Assembly: GCA_016191895.1 (NCBI GenBank)
Contig: JACPVD010000106.1
Coordinates: 1-7,653, forward strand
Source: Chloroflexota bacterium
Lineage (GTDB): Bacteria; Chloroflexota; Anaerolineae; Anaerolineales; Villigracilaceae
DNA length: 7,653 bases
Direction of reading: 5' to 3'
Within the stretch, counting starts at the first letter, position 1. Each line of letters starts with the position of its first letter. Under the pieces are notes generated by a model. The model searched no databases and was not told where the DNA came from. It was given only the letters and a program-made list of their open reading frames with translations. Of this stretch, positions 2,116-7,653 are shown one piece after another. A program made the translations under genes and the position numbers.

Positions 2116-4935
2116 ATGAGCAAAAAACTGACAGGCAACCAGATCCGCCAGACCTTCATCGACTTTTTTGTCGAACATGGACACACCGCCGTGCCTTCGA
2201 TGTCGCTTGTGCCGGGCGGGGACTCCACGCTTCTTTTCACAAACTCGGGCATGGTTCAGTTCAAGGATGTCTTCATCGGCACCGACAAAAAGCCCTACAC
2301 CCGCGCCGTCGACTCGCAGAAGTGCATGCGTGTCGCCGGCAAACACAATGACCTCGAAGATGTCGGCCGCGACGACACGCATCATACCTTCTTTGAAATG
2401 CTCGGAAACTGGTCGTTTGGCGATTACTATAAGAAGGAAGCCATTGCCTGGTCGTGGCAACTGCTCACCGAGGTTTGGGGCCTGCCAAAAGACAGACTCT
2501 ATGCCACCTGCTTTGAAGACGACCAGGGCAATGTCCCGCGCGACGACGAAGCCGCCGACGTGTGGAAATCACAGTCTGGATTCGATCCTTCACATGTGCT
2601 CTTTTTTGGGCGCAAGGAAAACTTTTGGCAGATGGCTGAAACCGGTCCATGCGGGCCATGTTCCGAAATCCATCTCGACCTAGGCGAAGATCGCGATAAC
2701 ATGCGCGGCACGGAACATCGTTGCGGCGTGAATGGCGAATGAACGCGCTTCCTCGAACTCTGGAACAACGTCTTCATTCAATACAATCTTTACGATGACG
2801 GCCGTCTCGAGTCGTTGCCCGCCAAGCATGTCGATACCGGGATGGGCTTCGAACGCATTGTTTCCGTATTGCAGGGCGTCGACTCGAATTACAAAACCGA
2901 CCTCTTCACCGGTTCGCTGGATGTGTTGCGCTCGCTCACCGGTCATGGCGAAAAGGAAATGCTCGCAAACTTTACGCCCTATCGCGTCATCTGCGATCAT
3001 GTCCGCTCGGCGGCGTTCCTCATCGCCGATGGAGTCGTTCCGGGTAACGCCAAACGCAACTACGTCACCCGCATGATCGTCCGCCGTGCTGCGCGTTTTG
3101 GCGGCAAGATCGGGCTCAACGAACCGTTCCTCGCGAGAGTTGCGCAGGCTGTAATCGACCAGTATGGCGATTTTTATCCCGAACTGGAAAAGAACAAAGC
3201 GACCATTTTCGACAACCTGACTCGGGAAGAGATCCGCTTCGCGCGGACCGTTGAATCTGGCACGGCTCATCTGCAGAATCATCTCGACAATCTTCGCGCC
3301 CAATCACCAGTTACTAATCACCAATTACCGATCCTCGACGGTCATATTGCCTTCGATCTCTACGCCACCTACGGCCTGCCCTTTGAAATCTCCCGCGACA
3401 TTGCCCGCGAACAAGGCATGGACGTGGAAGAGGAAAGTTATAACGAAGCGAAGGAAAAACACAGTCTTGCTTCCGGCGGCGGCAAGGCCATGGGTAAACT
3501 TGGCGGCGACGACGCCGAATACTTTGCGTCCCTGTTGAAGGATTTGCAGAAGAATAAAAAACTCGGCGAGCACGGTGTCGAATATGATCCATACACAAGC
3601 CCCAAAGCGAAAGGCGAAGTTCTTGCAATCGTTGTCGGCGGGGAGGCGGTTAAGTCTGCCTCCTTTGGCGAGGCCGTCGAAGTCATCCTGCCGAAGACCG
3701 GGTTCTACATCGAATCCGGTGGACAGGTGGATGATAACGGGTATATCCGTTCTTTCAGCGGTTCAACTGCCGGCGAATCGGGGAGTGGTTGGGAAATCGA
3801 AATCACCGCCATGCGTCGCGCGTCTGCCGGTGTGATCGTCCACATCGGCGAAGTCATCTCCGGCCAGCCGAAAGTTGGCGACCCCTGTATTGCCGAAGTG
3901 GACATGGATCGCCGCCACGACATCATGCGCAATCACACAGCCACGCATCTCATGCATGCCGCATTGCATAAAGTGCTCGGCGAACATGCGCGCCAGGCTG
4001 GGTCTCTGGTCGCGCCCGACCGCCTGCGCTTCGACTTCAACCACCCCGAAGCCATGACCCTCGATCAGATCGAGCGCGTCGAGAAAATTGTCAACGACGC
4101 GGTTGCGGCGGATATGGAAGTCGTACCCAAACTTAAGTCGCGCGAAGATGCAATTGCCGAAGGCGCGATGGCCTTGTTCGGCGAAAAATATGGCGAGACC
4201 GTTCGCACGATCACGATTGCCCCGCCCGCGCTGGATATGTCTGTCGAGGAAACCGTTGTCCACCCGATGGCCGCGGTGGAACATCAACACAAGTATTCCT
4301 ACGAATTGTGCGGCGGCGTTCACCTTGACCGCACTTCAGATGTGGGCGCGTTTATCATCACCAGCGAAAGTTCCGCCGCGGCGGGAGTCCGTCGTATCGA
4401 AGCGGTGACAGGCCGTGGCGCGTATGACCTGATCGCGAGGCGATTCAAATCTGCAAAACAAGCCGCAGCCCTGCTTTCCTCCGCGCTGGAGGAATTGCCC
4501 GCGAAGGTCACAGCCTTACAGGAAGAGCAGATTGAACTCCGCAAACAGATCGCAAACATGCGCCGCGACTCGGCTTTGAACACGTTCAACCTTATGCTGG
4601 AAGATGTCCAAACCGTGAACGATGTGATGGTGCTTGCGGTGGAGGTCCCGAATTGCGACGCCGATACCCTGCGCTCGCTGGCCGATAAATTCCGCGAAAA
4701 GCACCCCAAACATGGCGTGTGTGTGCTGGTCTCGGTACATGAGGGCAAGTCCACATTGATCGCCACTGTCACGGAAGACATGGTCAAAAAGGGAATCAAA
4801 GCCGGCGACATCATTCAAGCCATCGGCGGTAAAGGTGGCGGGCGTCCCAACCTTGCGCAGGGAAGCCTGCCCGATGGAAACGCCGCCGACGCGCTGGCAA
4901 AGGTTGTGAAAGCGGTCGAAGAAAAAGTGAAATAG
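2116..4935 (+). CDS. alaS: Alanyl-tRNA synthetase, interrupted by an in-frame TGA at codon 209
   Basis: AlaRS charges tRNA-Ala with alanine in the cytoplasm. Read through the TGA, the frame is 939 codons; E. coli AlaRS has 876. The class II catalytic core lies at about 1-250, with TNSGMVQF at 42-49, [17 protein letters not shown] at 90-106, [10 protein letters not shown], and after the [17 protein letters not shown] and [10 protein letters not shown]. The editing domain has its zinc/catalytic signatures HTATH (607-611) and C732-GGV-H736. The C-terminal DHHA1/C-Ala domain has GGKGGGRP at 904-911. Start ATG 2116 has GGAG 6 nt upstream. Codon 209 (2740-2742) is TGA, inside the catalytic core between VNGE and TRFLELWN. 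The same frame resumes at once with full conservation, so there is no indel. Neither the 208-aa head nor the rest alone could aminoacylate. Options are recoding, sequencing error, or an inactivated copy with another alaS elsewhere. It ends with TAG. Confidence 0.93.
2740..2742 (+). other. In-frame TGA in alaS (codon 209)
   Basis: The reading frame is unbroken on both sides, so this is a single-codon event. TGC, TGT or TGG would need one change. From memory, relatives with the same VNG-x-C-x-R-x-x-ELWN style carry Cys here; I could not verify this. The only downstream hairpin seen is TTCC (2749-2752) with GGAA (2762-2765), 4 bp around a 9-nt loop, which is too weak for a bacterial SECIS. Confidence 0.8.
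3302..3329 (+). repeat. Two 14-bp direct repeats inside alaS
   Basis: AATCACCAGTTACT (3302-3315) is followed at once by AATCACCAATTACC (3316-3329); 12 of 14 positions match. They encode SPVTNHQLP, a non-conserved stretch at the junction between the tRNA-recognition part and the conserved segment [16 protein letters not shown]. The AT-rich text differs from the surrounding gene, and 14 bp is not a multiple of 3. This suggests a small insertion kept in frame rather than an evolved protein segment. Confidence 0.6.
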
Positions 4936-4993: not shown

Positions 4994-5878
4994 TCAATCC
5001 TTTGTCGGTCGGGGATGATGCGAGAGATTCTCTTTGCCGAATTTTCGAATCAGGAAGATCGCGATCGCCCACGGCAGGACTCCGTACAACGTCTGTGCGG
5101 TCATGTTATTGGACGAAAGCACGAGATAGGATTGCACTGCGTTGCCCCAACCGTGCAGGAGAATCATCAGCCAGACGCTCTTGGTGTTGTTGTAGAGCCA
5201 TGTGTTGACAATTGTCCAGCCGACGATGCCGAGCGTCAGCCCGATGAGCGAGGCAATCATCGGCGCGAGTCCTGCCGCGAGGTTATAGTAGATGATGAAT
5301 GGAAAATGCCACACGCCCCACAGGATGCCCAAGATCCAACTGGCTTTTTCGGCGTTGTAGCGGCTTTGCAGGCGGGGCAATGCGAAACCACGCCAGCCTG
5401 GTTCCTCCGCGATGCCCGTGAAAACCAGCATGTAAACGAAGAACGGCAGAAACGAACCGATGGGCAACTTCGCGGCGTACGCGGATTTTCCGCCCGTAGA
5501 GAGCAGGCCCAACCCGAGGCTGACCAAAGCCAGCGCCAGCGGAATCCCGAACGCGGCGAGATACCACTTCGCTTCGACCTTCCATAAACTGGATCGGCGC
5601 CACAAATCCTTTATCCCCTCCACGCCTTCGACGACGCGCGTGACGATCAGCGCGGCGAACAACGGCCCCGCGCCGAGTGTGAAGAGAATGTAGACCATTG
5701 CCTGCGCGGAGTTTATTCGTCCACTTAGCAGGCCGAGGAAGTATTGAAAGTTCGTCTCGTTGCTGAGCGCCATGCCCTGTGTGGGTGCGAGGAAAATCGC
5801 CGCCAGTTGAAGTGTCCATGTGATTGCGTAGGCGAGAATGAAAAACGCCGTAAGTGGGTATTGTTTGATAATTTTCAC
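4994..5878 (-). CDS. CPBP-family intramembrane metalloprotease (CAAX/Abi type)
   Basis: This is a 294-aa integral membrane protein with about 7-8 hydrophobic segments. The CPBP signature is complete: E158-E159-PGW-R163 (EExxxR), H191 in WGVWHFPF, and H242-GWG-N246 (HxxxN-like). In family members the Glu and His residues form the intramembrane active site, as in Rce1. Bacterial relatives serve in bacteriocin self-immunity, signalling or protein turnover, and the substrate here is unknown. The start is GTG at 5876-5878, with AAGGA about 6 nt upstream. It follows the hydrolase-cyclase gene by 37 nt on the same strand, so the two are probably one operon. It ends with TGA and converges on alaS. 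Confidence 0.88.
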   Translation of the reverse strand: MKIIKQYPLTAFFILAYAITWTLQLAAIFLAPTQGMALSNETNFQYFLGLLSGRINSAQAMVYILFTLGAGPLFAALIVTRVVEGVEGIKDLWRRSSLWKVEAKWYLAAFGIPLALALVSLGLGLLSTGGKSAYAAKLPIGSFLPFFVYMLVFTGIAEEPGWRGFALPRLQSRYNAEKASWILGILWGVWHFPFIIYYNLAAGLAPMIASLIGLTLGIVGWTIVNTWLYNNTKSVWLMILLHGWGNAVQSYLVLSSNNMTAQTLYGVLPWAIAIFLIRKFGKENLSHHPRPTKD

Positions 5879-7318: not shown

Positions 7319-7653
7319 TTACATTGGCTTGCGGGCGCGGAAGGTGATGCCCTGCGTGCCGAAATCCAACGCGTCCGAGGGATCGGGCGTGTCCACGTAA
7401 CTGTTGTACTTGTGGACGATCTTGCCGTCTTCAAAACCAGCCGCGCTCACGGCGCGGAGCAACTCTGCATCCAGCAGAGCGCCAGCAATTCAGCCCGTCC
7501 ATAGCGAGATGTCGTCCAATGCGCTGTTGGGTACCTCCCTTTCCACAAGGATGTCACCCACTTGCAGGCGTCCGCCAGGTTTGAGAACGCGGAACCACTC
7601 GCGCAGGGTTTCGGTCTTGTCGAGGGTCAGGTTGAGGACGCCGTTGCTGATGA
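7319..7653 (-). CDS. SAM-dependent methyltransferase, AS3MT/UbiE-like, 3' part; in-frame TGA at a conserved Cys
   Basis: The 5' end lies beyond the window. The visible part reads ISNGVLNLTLDK, then FRVLKPGGRLQVGDILVE, then DDISLWTG-TGA-IAGALLDAELL, then AAGFEDGKIV and a tail, ending in TAA at 7319-7321. This is the C-terminal half of a class I methyltransferase of the arsenite-methyltransferase/UbiE group. Aligned with human AS3MT from memory, SNG matches SNC (Cys156), and W-T-G-[TGA]-IAGAL matches WGECLGGAL (Cys206), an As(III)-binding Cys. The Cys156 equivalent is Gly, so this is probably not a standard arsenite methyltransferase, and the substrate is unknown. The 56 codons after the TGA remain well conserved, which argues for readthrough, a very recent mutation or an error rather than an old pseudogene. 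Confidence 0.8.
7462..7480 (-). promoter_or_regulatory. SECIS-like hairpin just downstream of the in-frame TGA
   Basis: On the minus-strand mRNA, 10 nt after the TGA (7490-7492) starts CTCTGC-TGGAT-GCAGAG: 6 bp perfect, plus one G-U at the base. The loop begins 16 nt after the TGA and contains GG. In the E. coli fdhF SECIS the loop AGGUCU, also flanked by UGC and GCA, begins 17 nt after the UGA. The match is good in distance, size and loop G residues, but the U after GG is A here and no bulged U is obvious. Confidence 0.4.

Follow-up and report, generated by a model that had tools for sequence, protein, structure and literature searches.

A predicted selenocysteine-containing methyltransferase of the ArsM type that lacks the partner cysteines of arsenite methyltransferases

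Introduction

As the mechanism of the arsenite methyltransferase ArsM is usually told, two or three cysteines are needed. In human AS3MT, the residues that we take to be equivalent to Cys72, Cys174, and Cys224 of CmArsM are Cys61, Cys156, and Cys206. The accessible text of PMC5552862 gives a criterion for ArsM proteins: at least three of the four cysteines 44, 72, 174, and 224 of CmArsM. An ArsM-type enzyme from Thermus thermophilus, TtArsM, is said to work with a single cysteine and two histidines, and it is reported to methylate As(III) (accessible text of PMC8649762).

Methyltransferases of the ArsM type that contain selenocysteine (Sec) are already known as a kind, because Sec "arsenite methyltransferases" with a UxxG motif have been catalogued. 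In the accessible part of PMC13188914, the entry for an arsenite methyltransferase that has one Sec in a UxxG motif stands above the heading "Predicted with high confidence", with Fomenko et al. 2007 as the source, and fused double and triple Sec types of ArsM are also in the catalog. WP_011987699.1 is an example of the catalogued Sec-containing ArsM proteins. A Sec-type arsenite S-adenosylmethyltransferase is in the arsM row of the GOS survey of marine data, and the arsM family is also among the selenoproteins listed in PMC9312934 (accessible parts of PMC2398784 and PMC9312934). The accessible part of the deep-Sep paper (PMC12013277) has no mention of methyltransferase, arsenite, ArsM, Chloroflexi, Chloroflexota, or Anaerolineae. 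In the literature that we searched, we met no statement that Sec-containing ArsM proteins lack the partner cysteines, although one could still be in print.

Here we describe a gene of this kind from a Chloroflexota bacterium, and its relatives across several phyla.

Results

A methyltransferase gene with an in-frame TGA

The window, which is the whole stretch of DNA that we analyzed (7,653 nucleotides), is all of one contig from a 2.11-Mb assembly of 367 contigs that is 67% complete. The 3' part of a gene for a SAM-dependent methyltransferase lies at 7322..7651 on the minus strand. It has 110 codons, counting the TGA, and is followed by a TAA stop at 7319-7321; because the window is an entire contig, the 5' end of the gene is off the contig. 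Translating the frame from 7651 to 7322 gives ISNGVLNL...LWTG*IAGALLDAEL...RKPM, where the asterisk is a TGA at 7490..7492. The fragment matches residues 152-260 of the ortholog in a related genome (G018) with 97% identity. Between the TGA and the TAA, the frame is open for 56 codons and the protein is conserved, which agrees with the claim of the first-pass annotation that homology runs on past the TGA.

The protein has an ArsM-type SAM-methyltransferase domain (a predicted fold, from curated families and solved structures), and its nearest solved structures and nearest curated families are arsenic methyltransferases. To map residues, we aligned a profile of the family to solved ArsM chains. 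The TGA aligns with the cysteine of GECLAGAL or GECLGGAL, which corresponds to Cys224 of CmArsM, the last of the arsenic-ligand cysteines. The TGA occupies the site of a conserved cysteine of the wider family, as had been noticed from the window itself.

The motif U-I-A-G fits the UxxG of the catalogued Sec arsenite methyltransferase (NF008823/PRK11873), which is likewise of the ArsM type with one Sec; the comparison with the catalogued proteins covered motif and description (accessible parts of PMC13188914 and PMC2398784). Against NF008823 itself, P0003 and P0007, two proteins of the present clade, score 222 and 235 bits, under the cut-off of 263. Over the methyltransferase part, the best curated matches are NF041537 (ArsM/AhpD), NF041536 (ArsM/DUF2284), and NF047649 (MTase/UXPK-star), at 214-241 bits for P0003. 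The proteins of these three families also have UxxG in the accessible part of PMC13188914, but they are double or triple selenoproteins, whereas ours has one Sec and no second domain, and the scores are far below the cut-offs of 460-575 bits. In the five proteins that we scanned, including the window's fragment, no cut-off was reached for any of these four families.

The TGA is conserved across phyla

We scanned named genomes for relatives, and the best 80 of 195 relatives correspond to 79 distinct loci. The scan patterns contained HFHTG or AGTGNPF, so the conservation of both motifs in these loci is partly selected. At the Sec site, 74 of the 79 loci have TGA, four have TGC, and one has TGT. 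This alternation of TGA with cysteine codons is the pattern that had been looked for as a mark of Sec. Titles of the loci include Chloroflexota, Deltaproteobacteria/Desulfobacterales, Marinimicrobia, Latescibacterota, Acidobacteria, Gemmatimonadetes, Poribacteria, Nitrospirae, Myxococcota, and KSB1. When we compared 61 genomes, each close relative of the fragment (in G018, G046, G048, G027, and G059) had a single TGA, while a copy that is 54% identical (in G019) had TGC at the Sec site. An order-wide search with a full-length protein as the query, and with no selection for motifs, matched 21 of 400 genomes at 1e-60; the Sec-site codon was TGA in 18 of these and a cysteine codon in three. There is one extra stop within the aligned stretch in each of two loci (L238 and L284), and one stop in a Cys form (L257).

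A SECIS-like hairpin behind the TGA

A hairpin lies at 7462..7480 on the minus strand. Its sequence, from 7480 to 7462, is GCUCUGC-UGGAU-GCAGAGU: seven pairs, of which the outermost is G-U, around a five-nucleotide loop (7469-7473) with GG at loop positions 2-3. The loop starts 16 nucleotides after the TGA. The hairpin of 6-7 pairs with a GG-bearing loop that the first-pass annotation described is therefore present, with seven pairs and at a suitable distance. As printed in the accessible part of PMC13188914, the criteria for a bacterial SECIS are a loop of 3-9 nucleotides, an upper stem of 4-16 base pairs, a G among the first two nucleotides of the loop, a spacing of 16-37 nucleotides, and a minimum free energy of at most -7.5 kcal/mol. 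The hairpin has all of these features, and the 45-nucleotide stretch behind the TGA has a minimum free energy of -16.1 kcal/mol. This folding energy is not unusual compared to shuffled sequences (z = -1.21; 25 of 200 shuffles fold equally well), so the evidential weight for the hairpin rests on its conservation.

We examined covariation in 75 TGA sequences (the window and the 74 loci), of which 69 are distinct. In these TGA forms, 96.1% of stem cells are paired, versus 20-44% for controls with slid partners. Four of the seven pairs show two-sided changes, in 12 cells; the shuffles have a mean of 1.4 and none of 500 reach 12, although this test ignores kinship among the sequences. In three loci (L225-L227), both loop-closing pairs change from GC to AU, at the price of an Ala-to-Ile change in the protein. 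One locus (L283) has a different stem-loop in place of the hairpin. In contrast, the hairpin is lost in the five Cys forms, with 45.7% of cells paired versus 26-51% for the slid controls. So the sister genomes are not uniformly Cys, and the hairpin is conserved.

The TGA could instead be a nonsense mutation or an assembly error in a Cys-coding gene, with a hairpin by chance. The assembly invites this suspicion: it is fragmented (367 contigs) and just 67% complete, and on the same contig there is a second in-frame TGA at a cysteine codon, in the essential gene alaS, that is absent from relatives. But 74 of the 79 loci (best 80 of 195 relatives), from separate assemblies and several phyla, share the methyltransferase TGA; the frame then stays open through 56 more codons, which encode conserved protein; and the hairpin covaries. 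Its recurrence in independent genomes shows that the TGA is not such an accident, and we assign this explanation a negligible probability.

The TGA in alaS is private to this assembly

The alanyl-tRNA synthetase gene alaS is at 2116-4935 on the plus strand, and its in-frame TGA is at 2740-2742. All 17 relatives that we inspected have TGC or TGT at this site. The 45 nucleotides behind the alaS TGA fold at -7.8 kcal/mol (z = -2.07), and the stem is short and poorly closed, unlike the methyltransferase hairpin. We considered Sec in alanyl-tRNA synthetase and set it aside, given the poor stem and the codons of the 17 relatives. The alaS TGA is likely to be an assembly error or a private mutation, not recoding. 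Because it is private to this assembly, the methyltransferase TGA in this assembly would be untrustworthy by itself, without the relatives.

Two in-frame TGAs at cysteine positions within 7.65 kb might also mean that the whole genome reads TGA as Cys or as some other amino acid, and both the methyltransferase and alaS would then be explained without any SECIS. We compared the assembly to one relative across 97 aligned stretches (30,757 codons, on 81 of the 367 contigs). Where the relative has Cys, this genome has TGC 163 times, TGT 79 times, and TGA three times. One of these three is alaS, and the other two are in alignments with further stops, which we judged to be in the wrong frame. Also, the genome has an intact prfB, the gene for the release factor that recognizes TGA; a UCA anticodon is absent from all 13 tRNAs that we found; and within the window, a CPBP gene stops at TGA (4994-4996). 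Finally, the TGA-containing methyltransferases span phyla, and their hairpin goes with the TGA. Genome-wide recoding of TGA as Cys, which the alaS TGA had prompted us to consider, was dropped on the codon counts, prfB, and the tRNA searches, and we think that reassignment is extremely improbable.

Sec machinery

The window's genome is not one without sel genes: it encodes SelA (555 bits; cut-off 268) and SelB (340 bits; cut-off 242). The expectation that sel genes would accompany the TGA is only partly borne out within this assembly, as neither selD nor tRNA-Sec has a match in it (67% complete); both are found in close relatives. We found selD, itself with an in-frame TGA, in 11 of 12 genomes and a tRNA-Sec over the cut-off in 8 of 9, and in each case the only miss was the window's own assembly. 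The simplest reading is that selD and tRNA-Sec are absent because the assembly is only 67% complete and they lie in its missing third. Four weak matches to tRNA-Sec in this assembly were rejected, as they are tRNA-Ser and tRNA-Arg genes.

The first-pass annotation took a TGA at a Cys position with a SECIS-like hairpin to indicate a selenoprotein. This is supported by the alternation of codons, by the covariation of the hairpin, and by selA and selB in the assembly, with tRNA-Sec and selD in close relatives. From these comparisons of sequences, insertion of Sec at the TGA (7490-7492) is very likely.

The partner cysteines are missing

Within the 79 loci (best 80 of 195 relatives), the position of Cys174 of CmArsM, which is the cysteine of ISNC, is Gly in all 79. 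The first-pass annotation had pointed out this Gly in the window, and it is a feature of the family. At the position of Cys72, the residue changed to Ala in chain 5eg5 (C72A), 78 of the 79 loci have Thr and one has Val. Compared to canonical ArsM/AS3MT (CmArsM, 4fr0 and 6cx6; CrArsM, 5evj; human AS3MT, 8xt7), these proteins have Thr for Cys72/61, Gly for Cys174/156, and Sec for the last Cys. With Gly at 174, Thr or Val at 72, and Sec or Cys at 224, they do not have three of the four cysteines 44, 72, 174, and 224 of CmArsM.

The Sec methyltransferase clade carries an HFHTG motif. Among the 21 matches that were obtained without selecting for motifs, H35 is present in every one of the 19 covered rows, and H37 and T67 are each present in 18 of the 19. 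When the family profile is aligned to solved chains, the aligned ranges pair model position 35 with residue 42 of chain 6cx6 and model position 36 with residue 44 of chain 4kw7, which places HFHTG near Cys44 of CmArsM, within a residue or two. Because the clade lacks both partner cysteines and has HFHTG alongside the Sec, it probably does not bind arsenite in the usual way.

We also came across more distant Sec-type homologs. L319 (G019:C219:39300-40700) and L320 (G027:C14:64000-65400), both on the minus strand, are of a distant methyltransferase type that is conserved in two genomes. This type has TGA at the same motif (NWFA*IAGAKEG) and Gly at the ISNC position, and it is possibly another Sec methyltransferase family. 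A third Sec-type ArsM homolog, L321 (G411:C29:10809-11564, minus strand), has the motif WAR*QGGA, and its genome also contains a member of the present family. L321 is the nearest relative of the NF041537 kind that we met (330 bits, below the cut-off). It, too, combines a TGA with Gly where CmArsM has Cys174, which suggests that Sec-containing ArsM proteins more widely share the loss of this partner. L319, L320, and L321 all lack HFHTG, so the pair of histidines is not general to Sec-containing ArsM proteins.

Relationship to canonical ArsM and gene neighborhood

We built a tree of 102 rows: the 79 loci, 8 further members, 13 canonical ArsM proteins, and 2 of a sister Sec type. The trait column was kept and TGA was read as a gap. 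In the tree, which was built by a quick method and in which 41 of 97 inner branches are open and long branches meet at the outgroup, the 13 three-Cys ArsM proteins are separate from the 89 rows that lack both partner cysteines (81 Sec rows and 8 Cys rows). Four changes overall are needed to account for the Cys forms, and at least three of these are forced by starred branches. It is likely that the partner cysteines were lost together with the gain of Sec and that there were later, repeated returns to Cys, although the tree does not prove the direction.

Two of the genomes with the Sec gene (G018 and G048) also contain canonical ArsM-like genes with three cysteines, which makes it probable that the role of the Sec enzyme is distinct from that of canonical ArsM. 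When we clustered 499 flanking ORFs to look for a conserved operon, no partner was dominant. A Pfam scan of 73 adjacent same-strand ORFs (up to 700 amino acids) found no dominant partner and no ars operon either. The commonest family among these 73 ORFs was OsmC (6 cases), and DsrE, rhodanese, and metallo-beta-lactamase were each found 3 times. These four families are often associated with the chemistry of thiols, persulfides, or peroxides. Separately, an OsmC-like gene is near the methyltransferase in 8 of the 79 loci (L223, L242, L243, L249, L251, L256, L257, and L270), all titled as Chloroflexota or its lineages. On contig JABTUW010000003.1 the Sec methyltransferase is present twice (L243 and L250), with about 10 kb between the copies, and a second copy, ending at TGA, adjoins L252.

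Public databases

A search of public proteins returned at least 8000 candidates, all scoring as homologs. Of the 120 homologs listed, 117 end in LWTG, directly before the TGA, with lengths of mostly 203-204. Names among the matches listed are "SAM-dependent methyltransferase", "methyltransferase domain-containing protein", and "arsenite methyltransferase", and one is "cobalt-precorrin-6B (C15)-methyltransferase". Where a database entry stops at the TGA, the active-site end of the protein is likely to be missing from it. One protein of 261 residues (P0051) has Trp at the Sec site, perhaps because the gene caller used another code.

Discussion

Overall, we are confident in reading the TGA as Sec, which would yield a SAM-dependent methyltransferase of about 261 residues with a predicted ArsM/AS3MT fold and a single active-site Sec at residue 205. 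By analogy with established Sec insertion in bacteria, SelB would bind the hairpin and deliver Sec-tRNA. The Sec would sit at the position of ArsM's last arsenic-binding cysteine, and the other two ligand positions are Gly and, nearly always, Thr. We propose that the selenolate, together with the histidines of HFHTG, would hold a soft substrate in the trivalent state, for example an arsenical that already carries some methyl groups, and that a methyl group would be transferred to it from SAM.

That the selenolate would hold such a substrate by one ligand, with help from the pair of histidines, is a tentative proposal, and we would lean somewhat against it if pressed. We make it because the Sec is at a ligand position that ArsM shares, because the other thiol ligands are gone, and because of the precedent of TtArsM. 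In TtArsM the lone cysteine is the N-terminal C77 and there is no Sec, whereas here the Sec is at the position of the last cysteine (accessible text of PMC8649762).

Sec might also be inserted into an enzyme that is unrelated to arsenic, which would methylate sulfur, selenium, or an organic nucleophile, with the selenolate serving in activation or redox control. Both partner cysteines for the usual binding of arsenite are missing, canonical three-Cys ArsM-like genes are found alongside the Sec enzyme, and no ars operon appears among the adjacent genes scanned; the neighbors give a weak signal towards thiol or peroxide chemistry. On the other hand, that signal is mixed as well as weak, the closest solved structures and curated families are arsenic methyltransferases, and methylation of As(III) is reported for a Thermus enzyme with one Cys (accessible text of PMC8649762). 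We give a non-arsenic substrate a little under an even chance, which makes it at least as likely as the soft trivalent substrate that we propose.

More broadly, and with less than even confidence, we suggest that these proteins may form a large selenoenzyme clade that crosses phyla, in which the three-Cys arsenic site was lost and rebuilt on one Sec and a near-invariant His-x-His. This would be a new catalytic site whose substrate is not free arsenite. The clade would have been hidden from annotation because gene callers end it at the Sec codon.

A selenolate as the only conserved chalcogen ligand in a SAM methyltransferase would be chemically odd. Since TGA alternates with Cys codons in this family, natural Cys forms such as L249, L257, and L277 could be produced in ordinary hosts, so the function is directly testable. 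Should the Sec enzyme methylate arsenicals, it would link selenium to the methylation of arsenic in anaerobic Chloroflexota, Desulfobacterota, and other groups. Otherwise, the label "arsenite methyltransferase" that the clade bears in the databases is wrong. Either way, the public predictions for these proteins are cut short.
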